Shown: piece by piece, positions 14,496 to 29,058 of the stretch
How positions within the stretch are numbered: the first letter of the stretch is position 1
Layout of the letters: each line of letters opens with the position of its first letter
From: a virus
DNA: 31,325 nt
Virus record (IMG/VR): IMGVR_UViG_3300037189_005055
Coordinates: 1 to 31,325 of that record
Strand: one strand, 5' to 3'
Translations under genes and position numbers: made by a program
The notes under the pieces: generated by a model
The model's database searches: none
Told to the model about the DNA's origin: nothing
The model's input: the letters and a program-made list of their open reading frames with translations, nothing else

Positions 14496-17400
14496 TTATC
14501 TACCGAATAACCTATTAGTCTGCTCTGTTAGTGTTCCTGTTCTCGCCTTAAGCTCTGTTTCATACTTGTCAATAGCAAACCAATCTTTGGCGTTCTCCAG
14601 CGTCACTCCCTTGTGGTCTTCTGCATAGCGTCTGTTGATGGCTTCCTTAGCCTGCTTAGGCAGCTTGTTAAACCGCATTTTGTAGATGCGAGGAAGATCG
14701 TCTTTGGACACATTGGCATTGACAACCTGGCGAGCAACAGCAACCTGCTCACGGACAGCAGCGTTCATCATGATGTTCTTCTCTACATCAGGAAGAAGTC
14801 TGTATTGGTTGCTATTCAGCAGAGGACTAATTTTCTCATTCACTCTCTTGTTAGCTTCAGCGATGAGCATACGGTCATAGTTTCTGTCACCGCTGCTGGA
14901 GCCGTACAGAGCATATGGATCTAGATTGAGCCTGGTGATTTCAGACTCAACAGGAGAGCGCTTAAGCACTTGTCTGAAGCCCAGCAGCCTGTTGAAGTAT
15001 TCACCTTCTCTAGACAGTTCCTCTTCATTGAGCCTGATAACAGCCTCAGGAAGCTGTTCCTTGAACACCGGCAGCTTACCTGCTACACGCTGTAAAGCAG
15101 CCTCTGCAAAGGCTCCTGGTGCTGATTCAGCTTCGATGATGTTGGGGTCTCTAACAACTCTTCCTTCTTCTCTGATGAGGTTAGCAAAGTCATAGAGTTG
15201 TTTGACGATGAACGGCTGAGTGAAACCACCAGCGATGTCTCCAACAAACTTGCCGTTCTCAATAAGGAATTGACGAGCGGCTTCATCACTCTTTAAGACA
15301 TTGAAAATTCTATCTACAAAGGTGTCACCACTGCCTGCATTGAATTTAAGACCAATTACAGATTCAATAGCGCTCTTAACGTCAGAATCTTTCAATGTCC
15401 CTTGTGCGTTTCTGACAAAGATATCAGCGATAGCAAAGTATGAACCAGGTGTGCCTAAGGCCCTTACGTCAATAGTAGTGCCTCTGTTTGTCTTCACTTC
15501 ATACCACGGAACATCTTGGTTTTTCTCTCTGTACTCAATAGCAGAAGCGAAGGCAGCAGTGCCCACAGCGGCTTGAGCAGCCTTCTCAGAAGCTCTTCTG
15601 TAGAGAAGTTCAGCCTTGCCTGTTTCTCCAGCTTTGGCAAGACGAACAGCCTGAGACATTTCTTCACCAGCGCCAACAAGGCCTACAGGGCTGTATTTAT
15701 ACAGATAGGAAACAGCGTTTGCCATGTAGCGAGGGAACGGAATAGCAAAGTTGACAAACGGTGTTTTGTCAATGAGCCTAATCATCTCTGATCCGAGTGT
15801 TGAAGCTCCTCTTTCAAAGGAAGAAACAATAGTAGCATCTCTGGCTTTAGGAACATATGCAAACGTTGTTTGCAGCGCTTCCTTCATTGCCTCTTTAATG
15901 ATTGGAGAAGGGATGTCGATGTCCTTTTCAAGGAAGTCTGTGTAAAGATTTTGTCCTTGACGACGCAGTTGTCTATCAACAGAATCAGCAAACACGGCTC
16001 TACGAACAAAGCTGTCTGTGACAACGTTGAGCGAGTTAGCCCAACGAGCAACAGCAGAGACTTGCCTGTCCCCTGTCTCCTGCAGAGCATTGTTGATGTT
16101 GTCCAAGAGGATGGGATTGCTCTTCAATATTTGATCAGTGACTTCGCTGCTTAGTCCTTGATTCTTCATGTAGAAATAGACATCAAAGGCGTCATGGATG
16201 GTGTCACCCATTGACCGCTTAAGCGTCTCCATACGCTGTCCCTGTGCTGATTTAGACAGAGCACTACCAATGGAATAGGCTGTGCCTTCCATGAGTTGGA
16301 TGCCTGTCTTCATAGGCACAACAATGGCTGTTGACAACACGTTTCTAGCTGTGGTGTCAACACCGGAGGTGATCCAGGCTTTCCATTCTCTAGCTAAGCC
16401 TTGCTGTGCAGCATTGAATTTAGACAGAGCACCAACTTGATCGTTATCAAAGTTGTAAAGACTGTTAATCTTCTTCTCAAAATCTGGGTTGGTAGCTGCC
16501 GCTCTTTTGAATACAGCAGCAGCAGCAGAATATTGCTGCATAATGCGGGCAGCATCTGTCACTGTTGCTTTGTTCATAGCAGCGAACTGCTCTTTAGTGA
16601 CGCCGCTTTCCGTCAGAGCCTTCTCCAGCACTACGCTGTCAATGTCCTGCATACGAGCAAACACTTTGTTCAAAGCAGAACTGATTTGCTCTTGAGGCTT
16701 AAGCTGGAAATTGGGGTCATTCTTGACAACATGCAGAGCAATACGGACGGCTGCTTTACTCAATTCTGTCTTCACCTTAGCATCTGTCAAAGCATTAGCA
16801 GGGTCAATGGTGTCCAACAAAGAACGCCCATACAGCTTCATATACTCATCATGAACCCTATCCATGTTGTCGTTGATGGGGTCAATAAGAGCCTTCTCCA
16901 CCGCTGTAACAGGAGACGTAGGTGACGTAGGACCAAGACCTTGTTTATTTCTTTGGTCTGCAATGGCTTCGCTGAGTCTCTGTCCTTGTTGTTGAACACG
17001 TTGGGGTTTGACAGCATCAAGCAGCAACGGAGCACCAGCACTGATGGCACCAGCAAACAACATAGCTGCGCCAGTGCTGACAGGGTCTAGAGGTGCTGGT
17101 TGTTCTTTGAATGCCTTAGCCTCTTCCTGCTCTGCACGCTGTCCAGTGATGTTCTGAGCACCAGCAATGGCTGCTTCTGACGTAGCTAAGCCAGCAACAC
17201 CAGCACGCTTAAGAGCAACATCAGAAGCCTCTTTAGCGGCTACACGCAGTGCTCCTTGTGCGCCAAACTTACCAGCACCTGCACCAACCATATAGAGAGG
17301 AATGTCTGTTCCTATAGCTTTGGCAACGTCAACAACAGGACGAATGCCTGTTTGACCACCTGGCTCAAACACACCAGCCATTTTGTCGTACAAGTCTCTG

Positions 17401-17804
17401 CCCTTGGCAATGTCCAGCTTCTGCTTCTCAGGAGCATTGGCAATACGCATCAACTCAGGAATCTGACCAACAGTGGTTCCTACTTCAGCAAGACGACGCT
17501 CTGACATGAAGCGCTTGACAAGGTCTTCTCTGGTTTCTTCTTGCTTAAGACCAGGCTGTCCAGAAGCAACCAAGTAGTTTTGAGCAATGTTGAACAGCTT
17601 ATCATCCTGAGCAACATCGCCAAAGGCAATCTTAGGAGGCTCTGTAGGACGAACACTAGCAACAGTTGCACGCTGTCGCGGCAACATGCGAGGAATCTCC
17701 TCAGTGCCTTCAGCGAGAAAAGCTGGGCGACGTTGAGGAACTAAGTCCTCAAAAGCACCCGGTGTAGCCTTTTTAGGAATGAGGTCGTCAAAACCTGTTG
17801 CCAT
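14496..17804 (-). CDS. Large internal virion / ejection-type protein, 1102 aa
   Basis: This is the last gene of the virion arm and is comparable in size and position to T7 gp16. The N-terminus has two 'F(D/E)DL(I/V)P' repeats (GFDDLIPKK at 4-12, FEDLVPQRR at 18-26), a feature I associate with internal and injected phage proteins. The middle alternates Ala/Gly-rich, mildly hydrophobic stretches (near 160-185 and 245-260) with long helical charged regions, as expected for a protein that must unfold, leave the capsid and form a channel. No lytic transglycosylase motif is seen. It starts at the previous gene's stop (TAATG, one shared base). Role inferred from context. Confidence 0.7.
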   Translation of the reverse strand: MATGFDDLIPKKATPGAFEDLVPQRRPAFLAEGTEEIPRMLPRQRATVASVRPTEPPKIAFGDVAQDDKLFNIAQNYLVASGQPGLKQEETREDLVKRFMSERRLAEVGTTVGQIPELMRIANAPEKQKLDIAKGRDLYDKMAGVFEPGGQTGIRPVVDVAKAIGTDIPLYMVGAGAGKFGAQGALRVAAKEASDVALKRAGVAGLATSEAAIAGAQNITGQRAEQEEAKAFKEQPAPLDPVSTGAAMLFAGAISAGAPLLLDAVKPQRVQQQGQRLSEAIADQRNKQGLGPTSPTSPVTAVEKALIDPINDNMDRVHDEYMKLYGRSLLDTIDPANALTDAKVKTELSKAAVRIALHVVKNDPNFQLKPQEQISSALNKVFARMQDIDSVVLEKALTESGVTKEQFAAMNKATVTDAARIMQQYSAAAAVFKRAAATNPDFEKKINSLYNFDNDQVGALSKFNAAQQGLAREWKAWITSGVDTTARNVLSTAIVVPMKTGIQLMEGTAYSIGSALSKSAQGQRMETLKRSMGDTIHDAFDVYFYMKNQGLSSEVTDQILKSNPILLDNINNALQETGDRQVSAVARWANSLNVVTDSFVRRAVFADSVDRQLRRQGQNLYTDFLEKDIDIPSPIIKEAMKEALQTTFAYVPKARDATIVSSFERGASTLGSEMIRLIDKTPFVNFAIPFPRYMANAVSYLYKYSPVGLVGAGEEMSQAVRLAKAGETGKAELLYRRASEKAAQAAVGTAAFASAIEYREKNQDVPWYEVKTNRGTTIDVRALGTPGSYFAIADIFVRNAQGTLKDSDVKSAIESVIGLKFNAGSGDTFVDRIFNVLKSDEAARQFLIENGKFVGDIAGGFTQPFIVKQLYDFANLIREEGRVVRDPNIIEAESAPGAFAEAALQRVAGKLPVFKEQLPEAVIRLNEEELSREGEYFNRLLGFRQVLKRSPVESEITRLNLDPYALYGSSSGDRNYDRMLIAEANKRVNEKISPLLNSNQYRLLPDVEKNIMMNAAVREQVAVARQVVNANVSKDDLPRIYKMRFNKLPKQAKEAINRRYAEDHKGVTLENAKDWFAIDKYETELKARTGTLTEQTNRLFGR

Positions 17805-19270
17805 TAGAAATCCCGTCCTGTGAGTTCTTTGAAACGCTTCTTAACAGCGGCTGGATCAGCGCCTTGTGCAATAGCGTTTTGTGCATCTTCTCTTAGTTGC
17901 ACGATGTTAGGAGGAACCGCCACAGGTGTTCTAGCCCCTAAGCCACGCGGAGTAGCAGCCGTAGCTGATGCTGCCTGAGGAGGCGCTGCAGGCGCTGCAG
18001 AACGAGTGGCTGGAGGCGCAGCAGCAGGAGCCGCAGGCTCCACCCTAGTTGCAGGCTCTGTAGCGGCTGTAGGAGGCGTTACAGGCCTTGCTGGTGCTGT
18101 ACCGATGCCGCTCAAGAGCGAGTCAATGGCTGCTTTGTATGCGTCACTGATGGGCGCTCTAGTCATTGGATCAACGAATCGACCAGCAACAGCACGAACA
18201 GCGCTGGCATAGACTGCATCAATGTCCTTCTTTACATCTACTCCTGGATCACCAATGTAGTTGTACGAAGAACTACCGTCTGCGTTTGTAACGACAGCAA
18301 TGTTTTTACCGACAAGATCGCCGTATTTCCGAGCAACAGCATTTGTACCAGCTGTCTGAGCAAACTTAAACAAGTCACCAGGAGACAGCATGTTCTTGTC
18401 AATACCGTCACCACGCATGATTTCAACTTCTGCTTTGTCCTTTTCCTGCACTGTCGTATCAGGACTAGCAACAATAGCAATCAGTTCATTACGACGCTTA
18501 CTCCAGCTACGCTGAGTAGGTGTCAGTAAGCTAATAGCAGCTTCTGTTGTAGCAAGCTCTTCCAAAGCCTTCGTAGTTCTAGGATTGTCTTTTCCAAATT
18601 GACGAGTAAACTGAACCACCTTGCCTTGAAGGTGCTCCAATTGCTCCTCAGGCTTCTTGATGTCTTTGGGATAGAGTTCAGCGTTGATGCGGGCAACATC
18701 AAGCAACGGATCTGTCGTGGAAGGACCAACGCCTTCGTAGGCCAGCAACTGAGCAGCAGAAGCACCGCCACCAACTGTGCCAGCAATCTTTTCTGCCCTG
18801 CCTGTGCTGATACCAGTGCGGAAGAAGCCTCTGTCCTGCCCTAACGCTGCTTGCATCTGTTCAGGAGAAACAGCAGCAGGAGCAGCAGAAAGACTATCGA
18901 TGTACTTCTGCACTGTCTCAAAGCTCTTTGGAATCTTGTCCTTGTTGGTAACGAGATAGGAAGCCAAGTTAAGAGCTTCACCTTTTCCACGGCGGTCAAT
19001 GAAGTCTTTTGCAATGGCATCATTGGAAATGAGAGCCAGCTTTTCCTCTTCTGTCTCTGATCCTGTCAGATAAGGAGAAATGGAGCTATAGCGATCTGTC
19101 AGCGCTGTCTTCTTAGCAGCTACTTCAGCTTCTCTCTTTTGCTTGTTTACAGCAGCCAGTTTAAGACGAGTGGTGATGAGTTCTTCATTCTCTTCACGCT
19201 CACGCTTAAGTTTCTCTGCCTTACCGAGAGCTAAGCCTGTTAACAGCCCTGTCAATGCAATAGAAGCCAT
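17804..19270 (-). CDS. Internal virion-type structural protein, 488 aa
   Basis: ATG at 19270 follows AAGGAG with five bases of spacing. Residues 3-16 are hydrophobic (SIALTGLLTGLALG), followed by a charged coiled-coil-like helix to about 60 (KAEKLKREREENEELITTRL). The body is helical. Residues 395-450 are an Ala/Pro linker (for example RVEPAAPAAAPPATRSAAPA), and the protein ends in AIAQGADPAAVKKRFKELTG, a small helical motif I associate with phage structural proteins. Position just upstream of the 1102-aa gene suggests the counterpart of T7 gp15. No enzyme motif seen. Confidence 0.65.
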   Translation of the reverse strand: MASIALTGLLTGLALGKAEKLKREREENEELITTRLKLAAVNKQKREAEVAAKKTALTDRYSSISPYLTGSETEEEKLALISNDAIAKDFIDRRGKGEALNLASYLVTNKDKIPKSFETVQKYIDSLSAAPAAVSPEQMQAALGQDRGFFRTGISTGRAEKIAGTVGGGASAAQLLAYEGVGPSTTDPLLDVARINAELYPKDIKKPEEQLEHLQGKVVQFTRQFGKDNPRTTKALEELATTEAAISLLTPTQRSWSKRRNELIAIVASPDTTVQEKDKAEVEIMRGDGIDKNMLSPGDLFKFAQTAGTNAVARKYGDLVGKNIAVVTNADGSSSYNYIGDPGVDVKKDIDAVYASAVRAVAGRFVDPMTRAPISDAYKAAIDSLLSGIGTAPARPVTPPTAATEPATRVEPAAPAAAPPATRSAAPAAPPQAASATAATPRGLGARTPVAVPPNIVQLREDAQNAIAQGADPAAVKKRFKELTGRDF

Positions 19271-19272
19271 TT

Positions 19273-19725
19273 TTACTCCTTAGACATCAGCCCAGCCTGA
19301 CGAACAGCAGGCGCTTGCTTCACTTCAGCAACAGCGCTCTTAAGCACCTCCATTGCCGTTTTCTCATCCACCTCTGTAGCTTGAATGTAGTCTTCGTCTT
19401 CAACGATGTATCCAACATCATTCATGTCGCCAATGGTCTTCATCAGTTCAACAATGATGGGAATAGCAACGAAGCCAGCGTCAATGGTGTGAATACCCTT
19501 CATCACTCCAGCCTTAATCATCCCATTAGCCATTGTTAACAGAGGCGTGTTCGCCTCCATAGCCGAGAGAAGATTGTCAACAGCTTTCTCCGTCGTCAGC
19601 TTCTCTGTGTAGAAAGCAACAACGTCATCCAGAGAAGAATACTGAGGAGGCTGTTCCCAAGGATTGTTACCGGGCGTTCCTGTCAAAGACATACCAGGAA
19701 TAGGAGTTGCTCTTAATTCTCTCAT
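19273..19725 (-). CDS. Small structural-type protein, 150 aa
   Basis: ATG at 19725 overlaps the upstream stop (ATGA) and has GAGAGGAAC upstream. The N-terminus reads PIPGMSLTGTPGNNPWEQPP, close to a 'PG.SLT..P.N.PWE.PP' motif I associate with virion structural proteins of T4-like and podovirus-type phages. The remainder is helical with hydrophobic Ala/Gly/Ile segments (AGFVAIPIIVELMK) that could be membrane-interacting. Its place before the 488- and 1102-aa genes makes it a possible third ejection protein, as T7 gp14 is. Inference from order. Confidence 0.65.
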   Translation of the reverse strand: MRELRATPIPGMSLTGTPGNNPWEQPPQYSSLDDVVAFYTEKLTTEKAVDNLLSAMEANTPLLTMANGMIKAGVMKGIHTIDAGFVAIPIIVELMKTIGDMNDVGYIVEDEDYIQATEVDEKTAMEVLKSAVAEVKQAPAVRQAGLMSKE

Positions 19726-19921: not shown

Positions 19922-22900
19922 TCACCAATCAATTTCAGACATCATCTTACCGAAAGCTGTCCACATACTTGCCTTAGCTGCTGTAGAAGCTGTCGTTGCA
20001 TCAGCCCTAGCTGCAATATCAGCCACCGCAAGCTGTGTCACTCTGTCAGCGTCTTTCTCAAAGCTCTGCCATGCCAGTTGAATCTGGTCTCTGTAAAGCT
20101 GAGTTTCATTATTGTACTCTGCCAGCGTCATCTGCTGCATGTTCTGTGCTGTCAAATACAAACCTGCATTGATGGCAGCAGTATCAGCGGTTGATACTTC
20201 TCTACGCCATTGAGCATTGCTCTGGTCAATTACAAGGCGTTGATTGGCGTTGAACTGCGCTCTAGCGTTGGTCTGCTCAGTGTTGAATTTAGAGACAGCA
20301 TTGGCCTGGTCTGTGTTGAACTGGTCAATGGCGTTCTTCTGCGAAGCATTGAACTGATTGACCTGCGTAGCCAAGGAAACCATGAACTGATCTACCTGGT
20401 TCTGACTAGTGGCGTTGAACTGCTTCATAGCATTTTCAGCAGCCGCATCAGACAACAGAGCAGCGCTAAGTTGTTGTCCCTTGAACAACGTAGTCTGCTG
20501 CTCACGATCAAGGTTAGCCATGTCCATAGCTAGGAAATTCTGAGCATTCATGACAGCAGCTTGCTGTCTGTTGTTCAGATTTGCCATGTCCATAGACGCA
20601 TATGTAGCGGCATTGGCGAGAACAGAAGCCTGTTCGTTGCTCAGATCAGCAAGGTTAATCTGCTGAATAAACTGTGCATTGGCAAGAGCATTCTGCTGTG
20701 CTGCTGTGAAGTTGACATTGGCAATTTCAGCAACACGGGCAGCGTTGGTGATGTTCACCTGCTGCTTGTTCGTCAACTCCTGTCCCTTCAGAGCAGCTTC
20801 AATCTGAGCATTAGCCAACGCTGTCTGTTGCTTGTTAGACAGATTAGCCATCTCAACCTGCAGAGCATTGGTGGTGTTGAACAGACGAGTTTGTTGTTCG
20901 TTGTTGAGGTTGAGATTACGCTCTTGCAACACGTTGCTAACGTTGAACAACGCTGTCTGCTGCGTGTTAGACAACACCTGCCCCTCCAACGCTGCTCTAG
21001 CTTGGAAGTCTTGAATGAAGGCTTGTTGCTTGTTGCTAGCTTCAATGCCAGCGGCTTCAAAGTTTTGTGTGCTCTGCAGCATTGCCATCTGCTGGTCATT
21101 GCTGAGTTCTTGACCCAACGTAGCCGCTCTCACTTGCAGATTGGCTAAGGCAGTTTGCTGACGGGCAGACAGGTTAGTAAACTCCACCTGAAGATTCTCT
21201 GAAGAACGCTGAAGCACAGCCTGCTGAGAATTGTTGAGGTTGATGTTGTTCACTTCAGCATACTTAGCAGCATTGGCTAAGGATGTCTGTGTCTTGACAT
21301 CGAGGTTCTTTTCAGCAACAGCAGCCTTGATGTTGGCATTGGCAAGAACAACCTGCTGTGTGTTAGACAGGCTAGCCGATTGCAATGCAAATGCATTGGT
21401 GCTGTTAGTCAGCGCTGCTTGTTGCCTGTTGTTCAGATTCTCAAGCTCGATCTTCTGCGAAGCTGCTGCATTAGCCAACGCCACTTGCTGCTTGTTATTC
21501 AGATTGGCCATATCCATAGCAGCAAAGGTTTCAGCGTCCTTTGCAGCAATAGGAATAGCAGCCTCCATAGCCGCCTGCACAATGGCAGCACCAGCCATGC
21601 TGCTGCCGCCTAAGCCTCTAGCAGCCATTGCAGCATTGGCTTGTCTAATGGCACCAGCAGCCCACGCAGGAGTGCCGTCATTGAACTGAGCCATCAGCTT
21701 TGAAAGCTGTCCAGACACAGTGGAAGCAGCAGCAACAGTGCCTGTCTGCGCCTCAGCCAAGGCCTGGCTAAAGCTACCTTGCTGTGCCACCATCTTAGCT
21801 TCTTCGTTGAGCTTGTCCATCGTGGCTGCAACAGCCTGGACAGGCTCGGTGATTTGAAGAGCTTGCTTAGAAACGTCGATGATTTCTTCTTGAGAAATAG
21901 CACGCTGCTGACCAACAGCAGTGGAAGAAGCTGTGGTTTGGTTTGTATTAGCTGCAGGAATCTCAGCAGCCTTTGCCGGGGGCAGCACAGTAGGAGCATC
22001 CATACCAGCATACTTCGTCTCAGGCAGGGTGTAGTTGGTGGCAGCAGACGCCGCAGGAGTACCAGACAACTGAGCAGCATCGGTCTTGAAAGCTGCTGTC
22101 GTTGTCTCTGCTGTAGCCTTCGTAACACCGCCAACATCTGCTATCGTCGCTGCCTTGGCTTCCTGCTCAGGAGTCATAGCCAATGCAGGAGGTGCTGTCA
22201 CTTGAGCAGCACCAGGAGCTTCAGCAGCCTTTGCAATAGCCTCAGGAGAAACATAGCCCTGCTGAGCCTGCACCTGAGCTTGTTGGTCTACAGTGCCTTG
22301 TGCTGCTTGAACACCACCTTCTGGTTTGAATGTACGAACATATTCTTCATAGGCAGCTTGCCCAGCACTTACCATTCTTCCGTCTGGTGTTGTGACCTGA
22401 ACAGCAGGAAACGCTTTATCCTTACTCCACTCCTCCATACTAAGAGGTGTGGTAGTCCCTTCTAAGGCTTTCTTGATATCAGGAGCAGCCGCTGTAGTCT
22501 CTGCTGTAGACGCAGTGACGGTCTTAGGCTGTGCAGCCTGTGCCGCTGTCCCTGCCTGCGTTGTTGTCGCTGTAGCGGCTGTGCCTGCTCCACCAGTGCC
22601 AGCAATGGACTGCTCAGAAGTGATGGCTGTCTTTGCAGGAGTGACACCAGCAGCAGCGCCGGGAATGGGAACACCTGCTCTGCCTTCTTCGCTTGAGAAA
22701 TCTGTTCTACCGCCGCCAGTGGTTGTTCCTGTTGTTGCAGGCGCAGGAGCGCTTGTCTCTTGAATCTGCTGAGACACATCTGAAGAGACGTTGACAGGTG
22801 GAGGAGGCGCTGGAGACGTCACAGGCGCTGGAGCCGGTGCTGTTGCTGGAGCAGGTGTAGGGGCTGGGGCCTGTACAGGCGTAGGCGCTGGTGCTGATAC

Positions 22901-23320
22901 AGGTGTCGGTGCTGTTGCCGGTGTCGGAGCAGGAGCAGGAGCAGGAGCCTGCACAGGCGCTGGTGCAGGTGCTGACGTTTGATTAGATGTAGCAGCTATC
23001 CGAGCATCATTTTCTCTTCTAATTCTCTGATTAGTTGTTCTTGCTTCGTATTCTGCTTGCTCACTATCAGTGAGACCTGCAGGGCTGTTCAGCTTTGTTT
23101 CAAGTTCCTGCAGACGAGGGTCTACATAACCACCTTCAGCATAGCCTGTGACAGACCCTCCCTTAGCCATACGCTGAGCATACTTATCCGAGACAGCGTT
23201 GTACTTCATCATCAATGCAGGAGAGCTTTGGAGAAACTCATCAAAGCCCTGCATAGGGCCATCGTATCCCAGCTTACGAGCTAAGATTTCACGCTGCTTA
23301 GATGTAAAAGATGTGTTCAT
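19922..23320 (-). CDS. Long hendecad-repeat virion-type protein, 1132 aa
   Basis: Numbering is from ATG at 23320, which has AGGAC five bases upstream; an in-frame GTG at 23335 is less likely because it overlaps the lysozyme stop. Residues 1-65 hold a helical head (ARKLGYDGPMQGFDEFLQ ... AKGGSVTGYAEGG), familiar from phage structural proteins. Residues 115-175 are Pro/Ala repeats. Residues 195-480 are Ala/Thr-rich linker. Residues 608-959 are sixteen gapless 22-residue repeats (consensus L-S/N-N-x-QQ-x-x-L-A-N ...), and 967-1043 seven 11-residue repeats (QFN-x8). Both are multiples of 11, as in hendecad coiled coils. The C-terminus is helical. No catalytic motif. A rod-like virion part or ejected tether is inferred. 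Position between lysozyme and internal-protein genes supports a structural role. Confidence 0.75.
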   Translation of the reverse strand: MNTSFTSKQREILARKLGYDGPMQGFDEFLQSSPALMMKYNAVSDKYAQRMAKGGSVTGYAEGGYVDPRLQELETKLNSPAGLTDSEQAEYEARTTNQRIRRENDARIAATSNQTSAPAPAPVQAPAPAPAPTPATAPTPVSAPAPTPVQAPAPTPAPATAPAPAPVTSPAPPPPVNVSSDVSQQIQETSAPAPATTGTTTGGGRTDFSSEEGRAGVPIPGAAAGVTPAKTAITSEQSIAGTGGAGTAATATTTQAGTAAQAAQPKTVTASTAETTAAAPDIKKALEGTTTPLSMEEWSKDKAFPAVQVTTPDGRMVSAGQAAYEEYVRTFKPEGGVQAAQGTVDQQAQVQAQQGYVSPEAIAKAAEAPGAAQVTAPPALAMTPEQEAKAATIADVGGVTKATAETTTAAFKTDAAQLSGTPAASAATNYTLPETKYAGMDAPTVLPPAKAAEIPAANTNQTTASSTAVGQQRAISQEEIIDVSKQALQITEPVQAVAATMDKLNEEAKMVAQQGSFSQALAEAQTGTVAAASTVSGQLSKLMAQFNDGTPAWAAGAIRQANAAMAARGLGGSSMAGAAIVQAAMEAAIPIAAKDAETFAAMDMANLNNKQQVALANAAASQKIELENLNNRQQAALTNSTNAFALQSASLSNTQQVVLANANIKAAVAEKNLDVKTQTSLANAAKYAEVNNINLNNSQQAVLQRSSENLQVEFTNLSARQQTALANLQVRAATLGQELSNDQQMAMLQSTQNFEAAGIEASNKQQAFIQDFQARAALEGQVLSNTQQTALFNVSNVLQERNLNLNNEQQTRLFNTTNALQVEMANLSNKQQTALANAQIEAALKGQELTNKQQVNITNAARVAEIANVNFTAAQQNALANAQFIQQINLADLSNEQASVLANAATYASMDMANLNNRQQAAVMNAQNFLAMDMANLDREQQTTLFKGQQLSAALLSDAAAENAMKQFNATSQNQVDQFMVSLATQVNQFNASQKNAIDQFNTDQANAVSKFNTEQTNARAQFNANQRLVIDQSNAQWRREVSTADTAAINAGLYLTAQNMQQMTLAEYNNETQLYRDQIQLAWQSFEKDADRVTQLAVADIAARADATTASTAAKASMWTAFGKMMSEIDW
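20192..20422 (-). repeat. Seven tandem 33-bp / 11-residue repeats
   Basis: Directly after the 22-residue array come seven 11-residue units beginning Q-F-N (QFNATSQNQVD, QFMVSLATQVN, QFNASQKNAID, QFNTDQANAVS, KFNTEQTNARA, QFNANQRLVID, QSNAQWRREVS). The aromatic at position 2 is the regular core residue. The register differs from the 22-residue array by a few residues. Confidence 0.9.
20444..21499 (-). repeat. Sixteen tandem 66-bp / 22-residue repeats
   Basis: Within the 1132-aa protein, the unit start (SNKQQTALANAQ, NNRQQAALTNS, SNTQQVVLANAN and so on) recurs every 22 residues without a single insertion or deletion for 16 copies. Best conserved are N2, Q4-Q5, L8/A9-N10 and a hydrophobic last residue. 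Copies differ widely in sequence, so the array is old, not recently amplified. Confidence 0.92.
22796..22978 (-). repeat. Pro/Ala-rich low-complexity tract
   Basis: About 60 residues of alternating Ala-Pro with Val, Thr and Gln (APAPAPTPATAPTPVSAPAP) near the N-terminus of the 1132-aa protein. Such tracts are extended, flexible spacers. At DNA level the region is a GC-rich imperfect repeat of GGAGC/GGCGC-type words. Confidence 0.85.
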
Positions 23321-23327
23321 AATTGTC

Positions 23328-23834
23328 CTATTCACTTAGAAACAAAGCTCTTTCTGCTTGTCTGCGTCTAACAAGACCAGGAAGCACCTTTCCTGCCGCT
23401 TTAGTCCACGACATGAAAGCATCAGCAGCTTTCTCAAAGTCTCCTCTATTGATAGCCATACGCATTGCAGAGCGTTGAAAATTACCTAGCCCTGCATTGA
23501 ACGCAAAAGAGACACAAGCGTCAAATGCTCCTTGACGACCAATAAGGCCAGGAGAGAGACGAAATACACCTCGCTCAAATACACTGAGATCTTTCTCAAA
23601 AAGCTCATTCACTTCTTCCTTGCTCCAAGTCCTGTTGTCAACAGAGCGCAAAGGATAGTCCTTCCTGATAATGCCTGTATAGCCTTCTTTAGGCGTCATA
23701 GGCAAAGCAATCTGATCTTGGTACAGAACATGCCCATAGCCAATAGTCCAGATATGAGCAGGACACAGATAGGGCTTAAGTCTGCACCCTTCAAACAGGT
23801 GCATCAATTCTATACCTTTTTTGCTTGTTTTCAT
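23328..23834 (-). CDS. GH24 (T4-type) lysozyme, endolysin, 168 aa
   Basis: The muramidase triad fits E-x8-C-x5-T: FEGCRLKPYLCPAHIWTIGY places E15, C24 and T30, followed by GYGH. In this subgroup Cys takes the place of the T4 Asp20. The C-terminal AFNAGLGNFQRS and GLVRRRQAERALF match the family. It would cut the glycan backbone of peptidoglycan. No signal peptide or SAR helix is seen at the N-terminus, so it needs a holin for release. ATG at 23834 overlaps the stop of the 3TM holin-like gene. Confidence 0.93.
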   Translation of the reverse strand: MKTSKKGIELMHLFEGCRLKPYLCPAHIWTIGYGHVLYQDQIALPMTPKEGYTGIIRKDYPLRSVDNRTWSKEEVNELFEKDLSVFERGVFRLSPGLIGRQGAFDACVSFAFNAGLGNFQRSAMRMAINRGDFEKAADAFMSWTKAAGKVLPGLVRRRQAERALFLSE

Positions 23835-28146: not shown

Positions 28147-29058
28147 TCAACTTAAGCCTACATTGGCTGTTCGTTCACTAGATGATGTCGTTCTATCGGA
28201 AGTGACATAGACAATGCGTTGTTGTAATGGAATTAATACTATTCTAGCTTCTCTAGCTCCAACATAAACAGTGCGTAGTCTTTCATACAAATTCTTTACA
28301 GCTTCGTAGTCAAAGGAGGTGTTAGTGACAGATTCATTACCAAGCGCTGTTGTGCCAACAACACCAGCAGCAAATGCTTGTGCTTTGGCAATGACAATGA
28401 CTGTTTGTACAAACGCCGTAGCGCTAACACCAGAGACGCTGAAGTTGGCATTGGTGATGAAGTCTACGTTACCAATAGAGCCTGTAGCGCTGACACCAAC
28501 AGCGCTGACATTGGCTGTGGTGTTTACTGTTTCATTGCCTAAGGACGTTGTAGCGCTAACGCCTGTCGTCGTTGCTGTGATGGCAATGGAAGCAACAACA
28601 CTGCCTAACGACGCTGTAGCGCTAACACCTGTAACGCTTACTACAGCATCTGTAGTGACATTGACGTTTCCAACACTAGATGTTGCGCTTACACCAGAAA
28701 CGCTAAAGGCGATATCTAGGCTGATAGTGACAGACCCCACAGAGGCTGTGGCGCTGACGCCTGTGACATCTACGTTAGCGTCTATGCTGACAGCGACAGA
28801 GCCTACAGAGGCTGTAGCGCTGACGCCTGTCACAGGCACTGGCGTTACGGAGACAACGGTGACGCTTCCAACAGAGCCTGTAGCGCTAACACCAGTAGCG
28901 TTGACAGTGGTGTCTGTGTTGACAGTGACACTACCTACAGAGCCTATAGCGCTGACACCAGTGGCATTAATGCTTACATTGCCCCCTACTGGAGCCTCAA
29001 ACAACCAGCCAAAGGATCCGTTGTTGGTGCTATTATTACCAGCGTACCAGTTGCTCAT
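28147..29058 (-). CDS. Beta-repeat tail/fibre-associated protein, 303 aa
   Basis: After a 24-residue head (MSNWYAGNNSTNNGSFGWLF) come ten exact-length 22-residue repeats at 25-244 (core V-x-GVSAT-x-S-x-G-x-V-x-V). A C-terminal domain of 59 residues carries YERLRTVYVGAREARIVLIP and RIVYVTSDRT, a pattern I associate with short phage tail-attached proteins. The repeats predict a beta-solenoid or stacked beta hairpins. It lies between the large fibre-like gene and the adaptor, so a receptor-binding or fibre-linking role is likely. ATG at 29058 shares one base with the upstream stop. Confidence 0.75.
   Translation of the reverse strand: MSNWYAGNNSTNNGSFGWLFEAPVGGNVSINATGVSAIGSVGSVTVNTDTTVNATGVSATGSVGSVTVVSVTPVPVTGVSATASVGSVAVSIDANVDVTGVSATASVGSVTISLDIAFSVSGVSATSSVGNVNVTTDAVVSVTGVSATASLGSVVASIAITATTTGVSATTSLGNETVNTTANVSAVGVSATGSIGNVDFITNANFSVSGVSATAFVQTVIVIAKAQAFAAGVVGTTALGNESVTNTSFDYEAVKNLYERLRTVYVGAREARIVLIPLQQRIVYVTSDRTTSSSERTANVGLS
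28327..28986 (-). repeat. Ten tandem 66-bp / 22-residue beta repeats
   Basis: Ten consecutive units of 22 residues without gaps (for example NTDTTVNATGVSATGSVGSV and SIDANVDVTGVSATASVGSV, each plus two residues). The GVSAT word is the best conserved part at both protein and DNA level (GGCGTTAGCGCTAC-like on the coding strand). Outer units are more diverged than central ones. Confidence 0.95.

Follow-up and report, generated by a model that had tools for sequence, protein, structure and literature searches.

The long repeat protein described here has about an even chance of being the first member of an HMO-2011-type internal-virion (ejection) cassette, in which an array of capped helices, adjustable in length, precedes a hendecad helix. 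A component of this kind is the most likely assignment because of the position of the gene and the helical make-up of its product. The gene lies in a window, i.e., the whole stretch of DNA analysed, of 31,325 nucleotides, which is itself a standalone 31-kb virus record (IMGVR_UViG_3300037189_005055). Five parts would make up the protein (Table 1). A small domain at the N-terminus is followed by a probably disordered linker and by a helical domain that is conserved; then come an expandable array of 22-residue units and, as the last part, a hendecad helix (about 110 residues) together with the helical domain at the C-terminus. For this one member of the cassette, an exact length rule holds across hundreds of phages, with differences that are multiples of 11 residues and mostly of 110; together with its three partners, it forms a four-gene candidate delivery cassette that can now be named.

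From its DNA polymerase, ribonucleotide reductase, PhoH, integrase and structural genes, the window phage appears to be one of the HMO-2011-type podoviruses, which are abundant in the sea and have SAR116, Roseobacter and SAR11 hosts. The closest relatives of the repeat protein are encoded on IMG/VR contigs; in cultured phages the protein is annotated only as a hypothetical protein, and in one uncultured genome as 'huntingtin'. The search of host genomes returned only contigs that resemble phage pieces binned into MAGs. Contigs of equal size (L112/L113 and L111/L114; 55,371 and 62,825 bases) recur in two MAGs that belong to different phyla, which suggests that these entries are misbinned phage contigs.

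Domain layout and periodicity

On the minus strand the open reading frame can be extended to a GTG at 23335 (19922-23335), which adds five residues at the N-terminus; judging from the sequence, the ATG at 23320 is the likelier start because an AGGA is spaced upstream of it. Residue numbers are counted here from the GTG at 23335; the repeat limits of the first-pass annotation (608-1043) are in ATG numbering. The protein is nearly uncharged overall, and Asn plus Gln amount to about 30% of the repeat region. By composition, 48 prolines are present in the linker, and DNA tandem repeats are found inside its coding region at 22805-22927. Among the relatives (L001-L302), the arrays are without any proline, in contrast to the proline-rich linker.

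Table 1. Features of the repeat protein gene and of its neighbours in the window (residues counted from the GTG at 23335)
Feature	Position	Strand	Remarks and basis
Repeat protein gene	19922..23320	-	ATG start at 23320, 1132 aa; ORF call; homologs align from this Met
Conserved N-terminal domain, residues 6-76	23108..23320	-	Gly-rich end MAKGGSVTGYAEGG; HMM alignment across relatives
Pro/Ala/Thr-rich linker, residues 77-488	21872..23107	-	Length variable; composition
Conserved helical domain ahead of the repeats, residues 489-612	21500..21871	-	Motif GTPAWAAGAIRQANAAMAARGLGGSSMAG; alignment with invariant columns
Sixteen 22-residue units, putative capped helices, residues 613-964	20444..21499	-	Translation, autocorrelation, AlphaFold2, cap statistics
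Hendecad segment, residues 965-1048	20192..20443	-	Same phase as the 22-mers; translation, autocorrelation, AlphaFold2
Predicted continuous helix, residues 978-1090	20066-20404	-	AlphaFold2
Conserved C-terminal helical domain, residues 1049-1137	19925..20191	-	HMM anchor
150-aa partner gene, PIPGxSLTxxPGNxPWExPP family	19273..19725	-	Next downstream in 250/263 relatives with enough sequence
488-aa partner gene, unknown family	17804..19270	-	Homologs in same position
1102-aa helical protein, last cassette gene	14496..17804	-	AlphaFold2; BFVD matches; downstream in 177/207 relatives
Three tandem tRNA genes, Arg-TCT, Thr-TGT, Leu-TAA	14205-14447	+	Where two transcription directions meet

The first-pass annotation had described sixteen 22-residue units without any indel, followed by seven 11-residue units. 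Both are seen in the translation, the latter at 20422-20192 (residues 972-1048), and residues 965-971, the seven that link the two, keep the phase, with the 11-residue phase unbroken throughout. BLOSUM autocorrelation against shuffles gave z values of 13.0, 13.9 and 13.2 at lags 22, 44 and 66 for the 22-mers, and of 9.7 at lag 11 for residues 965-1048; with values so far from chance, and with the length rule in relatives, the proposed 11-residue rhythm is well borne out.

The sequence thus has a period of 11 residues without phase breaks, but the hydrophobicity of the 22-mers does not follow the expected 3.67 residues per turn. Its power is found at the harmonics 2.75, 7.34, 2.2 and 11, and not at 3.67, where an amphipathic hendecad helix would place it (KD power of 5.0 at 3.667 versus 22.5 at 2.75); this value is approached in the 11-mers only, where LIVMF residues peak at 3.65 (9.7). 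In the 11-register average, the 11/3 helix has a stronger second harmonic (6.9) than first (1.9), which fits helices packing on two sides. A simple amphipathic hendecad helix was rejected for the 22-mers, its first harmonic being too weak. Amphipathic membrane helices like those of apolipoproteins or synuclein, a candidate reading on account of the 11/22 period, were rejected given the few charges, the Gln/Asn-rich units and the lack of a single hydrophobic face. Elsewhere in the window, at 28147-29058 on the minus strand, there is a second, unrelated 22-residue repeat of beta type, made of GVSATxSVGSVxV units with an identity of 0.38 at lags 22 and 44.

Length of the array across relatives

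The length of the repeat region was taken as the distance between the conserved flanking domains, used as anchors (residues 489-612 being the left one), in a first set of 86 relatives and a later set of 152 distinct ones. In 56 of 56 close relatives the offset from the window protein is -220, -110, 0, 110, 220 or 330 residues, all multiples of 110; more distant isolates show offsets such as -132, -231, -264, -275, -286 and -297, still multiples of 11, and one distant relative, at -219, is off by one residue from a multiple of 11. The 142 later relatives with both anchors were fetched separately and none was used to define the rule; the length difference is a multiple of 11 in 140 of them, and among the 139 whose anchors are complete it is a multiple of 110 in 115, the proteins counted being related and their numbers not equivalent to numbers of events.

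The array length therefore changes mostly in blocks of five units (110 residues). In the close family the arrays contain 6, 11, 16, 21, 26 or 31 of the 22-residue units, and in distant groups 2, 3, 4 and 9; one relative has 14 units, i.e., 9+5, with an uncertain placement, and a few come out at half-units, 5.5 or 8.5. On a tree of the 86 proteins, a quick one with several long branches, 22 changes in unit number are needed.

There is somewhat less than an even chance that the five-unit steps are only the product of unequal recombination between five-unit DNA repeats and carry no structural meaning. Copies of 110 residues are visible in the arrays of 21 to 31 units (identity at lag 110 of 0.39, 0.48 and 0.59, the last for 31 units); therefore, recombination between copies explains the recent growth of the longest arrays. 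Nevertheless, the arrays of 11 and 16 units are also five units apart, yet lag 110 is not favoured in them (identity of 0.31-0.33, versus 0.28-0.36 at lag 66 or 22), which goes against recombination as the sole cause, although old copies may have diverged. In these shorter arrays the steps may reflect a structural constraint, e.g., one superhelical turn, or they may be old duplications whose similarity has faded. The length rule leads to a direct test, in which array length is compared with the dimensions of the envelope, the head or the channel.

Putative capped helices and the continuous-helix reading

In 774 distinct units, position 1 is Ser, Thr, Asp or Asn in 96% and position 4 is Gln in 90%; in the later units (n=931) these values are 92% and 86%. 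Such a pair of positions reads as a classical helix N-cap and capping box, and in the 11-mers, which are without the cap, Ser, Thr, Asp or Asn amount to 47%. AlphaFold2 predicts each 22-mer as a helix of about 16 residues and a loop of about 6, with a period of 22, and the C-terminal 11-mers as part of one long helix of about 17 nm. The confidence of the model is moderate (mean pLDDT of 63, pTM of 0.43), which counts against the preferred reading of the protein; in the centre of the array (model residues 180-380), pLDDT is about 70-85. Helix caps in the 22-mers are thus suggested by both the sequence and the predicted model. The conserved Asn and Gln had initially been regarded as polar layers or ligand sites; Ser/Asn/Thr/Asp at position 1 and Gln at position 4 are better read as caps, and N10 and N21 are outside that reading.

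The statistical couplings in the array peak at i+3/i+4 and drop to background at i+5, from which it follows that the repeat rhythm is helical, as first proposed. Across the unit boundary the couplings are mixed: 17-21 and 20-23 are strong and most pairs starting at 18-22 are weak, the i+3/i+4 couplings starting at these positions being low except for pairs 20-23 and 18-21. No clear signal of unit-to-unit contacts was obtained from the coupling analysis, and likewise none of parallel versus antiparallel packing. A beta-solenoid with Asn/Gln ladders and 22 residues per coil was rejected in view of the i+3/i+4 couplings, the absence of proline and the AlphaFold2 helices. PDB and VIA searches with the predicted models gave nothing above chance level for helical models; the best Foldseek PDB match of the repeat array model had an E value of 0.019 (designed cages) and the VIA Z was at most 6.2, therefore no known fold was assigned to the array.

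It is unlikely that the whole region of 436 residues is one hendecad helix in a long rod or helical tube, i.e., an oversized structure like that of phiX174 H with a Gln/Asn-lined lumen. A continuous helix of 60-65 nm over about 435 residues had been suggested by the first-pass annotation, and it would agree with the phase that runs unbroken through both repeat types, the absence of proline, the content of Asn and Gln, the strong second harmonic expected of two-sided packing, and the precedent of phiX174 H, whose Gln/Asn-rich hendecads line a DNA tube (PMC7354561). Nevertheless, almost all units start with a cap in their sequence, the AlphaFold2 model interrupts each of them with a loop, the couplings from positions 18-22 are low apart from the two pairs mentioned above, and a length of 65 nm exceeds the cell envelope, which the 31-unit relatives would exceed even further. 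The rod is accordingly replaced by units that, from their sequence, each seem to begin with a helix cap; of the hendecad coiled coil, the 11-mer segment survives as one long predicted helix, but the 22-mers are predicted to be broken into units.

Proline is found at none of the 17,028 plus 25,509 array residues (about 42,000, the second figure counting arrays and not distinct units), which is odd for a helix-loop model in which one residue in four is loop. That model does not account for it, and the array could turn into a continuous helix in another state. A very improbable extension of this idea is that the proline-free, phase-locked array is a folding switch, whose capped helices, compactly stacked inside the head, would zip into continuous hendecad helices after ejection and extend the amide-rich 11-mer helix into a tube; if so, the length of the tube would be set in fixed steps of 110 residues (16.5 nm of helix).

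The cassette, its proposed role and known systems

In the window, the cassette genes come after matches to tail and internal-virion families and before the tRNAs, and their order is kept in HMO-2011, CRP-1, CHOED, phiM6 and ctYwJ313. The last member, the 1102-residue protein, resembles internal virion proteins in its predicted fold: with Foldseek and BFVD, its AlphaFold2 model matches those of Pelagibacter phage EXVC018P (E value of 4e-8) and Synechococcus phage S-RIP1 (1.2e-6), and also many 'large polyvalent' phage proteins. T7 gp16 is absent among the VIA matches listed for this protein, which is not evidence against the likeness. These fold matches and the linkage of the cassette in relatives agree with the internal-virion-type neighbours proposed at first; the adjacency to lysozyme is not conserved, a lysozyme of the window type being just upstream in 53 of 218 relatives. 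In some relatives the 1102-residue neighbour has a long form of about 1700-1835 residues (e.g., L058:12554-18058), the extra part of which has no Pfam or PHROG match.

The repeat protein is encoded with this internal-virion-like gene in the virion gene block, the identity of the neighbour resting on a predicted-fold match. The window protein itself has no PHROG, Pfam or PDB family match, and sequence and profile comparisons placed it in no named ejection protein family; ejection is therefore argued from gene position and from the predicted fold of the neighbour. Ejection protein families diverge fast. As a member of the ejection cassette, the repeat protein would be carried inside the head, close to the portal, and would exit before the DNA together with its three partners; the long hendecad helices of several copies, candidates for a channel wall, could then join to line or extend the delivery channel, and the capped-helix array would act as an adjustable-length spacer between two conserved domains. 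A literature search found neither virion proteomics or mass spectrometry of this family nor a 22-residue phage repeat.

An external fibre or appendage, with the array as its shaft and with an S74 domain that aids trimerisation in some relatives, is improbable. The S74 chaperone domain is better known from tail fibres, and its presence at the C-terminus of several relatives (L006, L055, L058, L059, L061, L065, L068, L069 and L099) and of CRP-3 counts against the internal-virion reading; nevertheless, it occurs in a minority of relatives only, the window protein having no C-terminal Peptidase_S74, the isolates have separately annotated tail fibre genes, and the repeat protein is linked to the internal-virion cassette. 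Furthermore, phages of such different hosts as SAR116, Roseobacter, SAR11, Rhizobium, Vibrio and Aeromonas have both the helical domain and the C-terminal part in common, which suits core machinery better than a host-range fibre. It is decidedly improbable that the protein is not ejected but stays in the head, as an internal or scaffold-like component by which DNA or the portal core is organised, for although the location in the virion gene block, the internal-virion-like neighbour and the helical, nearly uncharged protein would suit it, scaffold genes normally adjoin the capsid gene and that of phiM6 is about 6 kb away.

The cassette is similar to those of T7 (gp14, gp15 and gp16) and P22 (gp7, gp20 and gp16) in its place after the tail genes in the virion gene block, in its mostly helical proteins with the largest one last, and in the internal-virion-like predicted fold of its last member; it differs in that the repeat protein is without a detectable sequence match in PHROGs, Pfam or PDB, and in its expandable 22-residue array, which is not described for T7 or P22 ejection proteins in the excerpts considered of PMC8954989, PMC11440229 and PMC13320782. 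According to these excerpts, the T7 core proteins, once out of the head, refold and form a trans-envelope channel (PMC8954989), and the third ejection protein of phage PhiM1 is an eight-helix barrel on the portal (PMC11440229). Protein H of phiX174 shares Gln/Asn-rich hendecad helix segments with the repeat protein (PMC7354561, Table 1); however, it has three hendecads followed by heptads in a decameric tube of 121 residues, versus seven hendecads after a capped array. H is unrelated to this dsDNA phage, and for the repeat protein, known from its sequence, the hendecads and the amide richness are observed and membership is not claimed. The array is also similar to the alpha-solenoids of natural and designed helical repeat proteins, with short repeated helices joined by loops in the AlphaFold2 model, but each of its 22-residue units has a single helix, of about 16 residues. 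HMO-2011 gp25 (ADW08438.1) and the related proteins of CRP, HTVC, CHOED, MQM1, phiM6 and Rhizobium phages belong to the same family and have both flanking domains, the 22-mers, the 11-mers and the same cassette, with 2 to 9 units versus 16 in the window protein.
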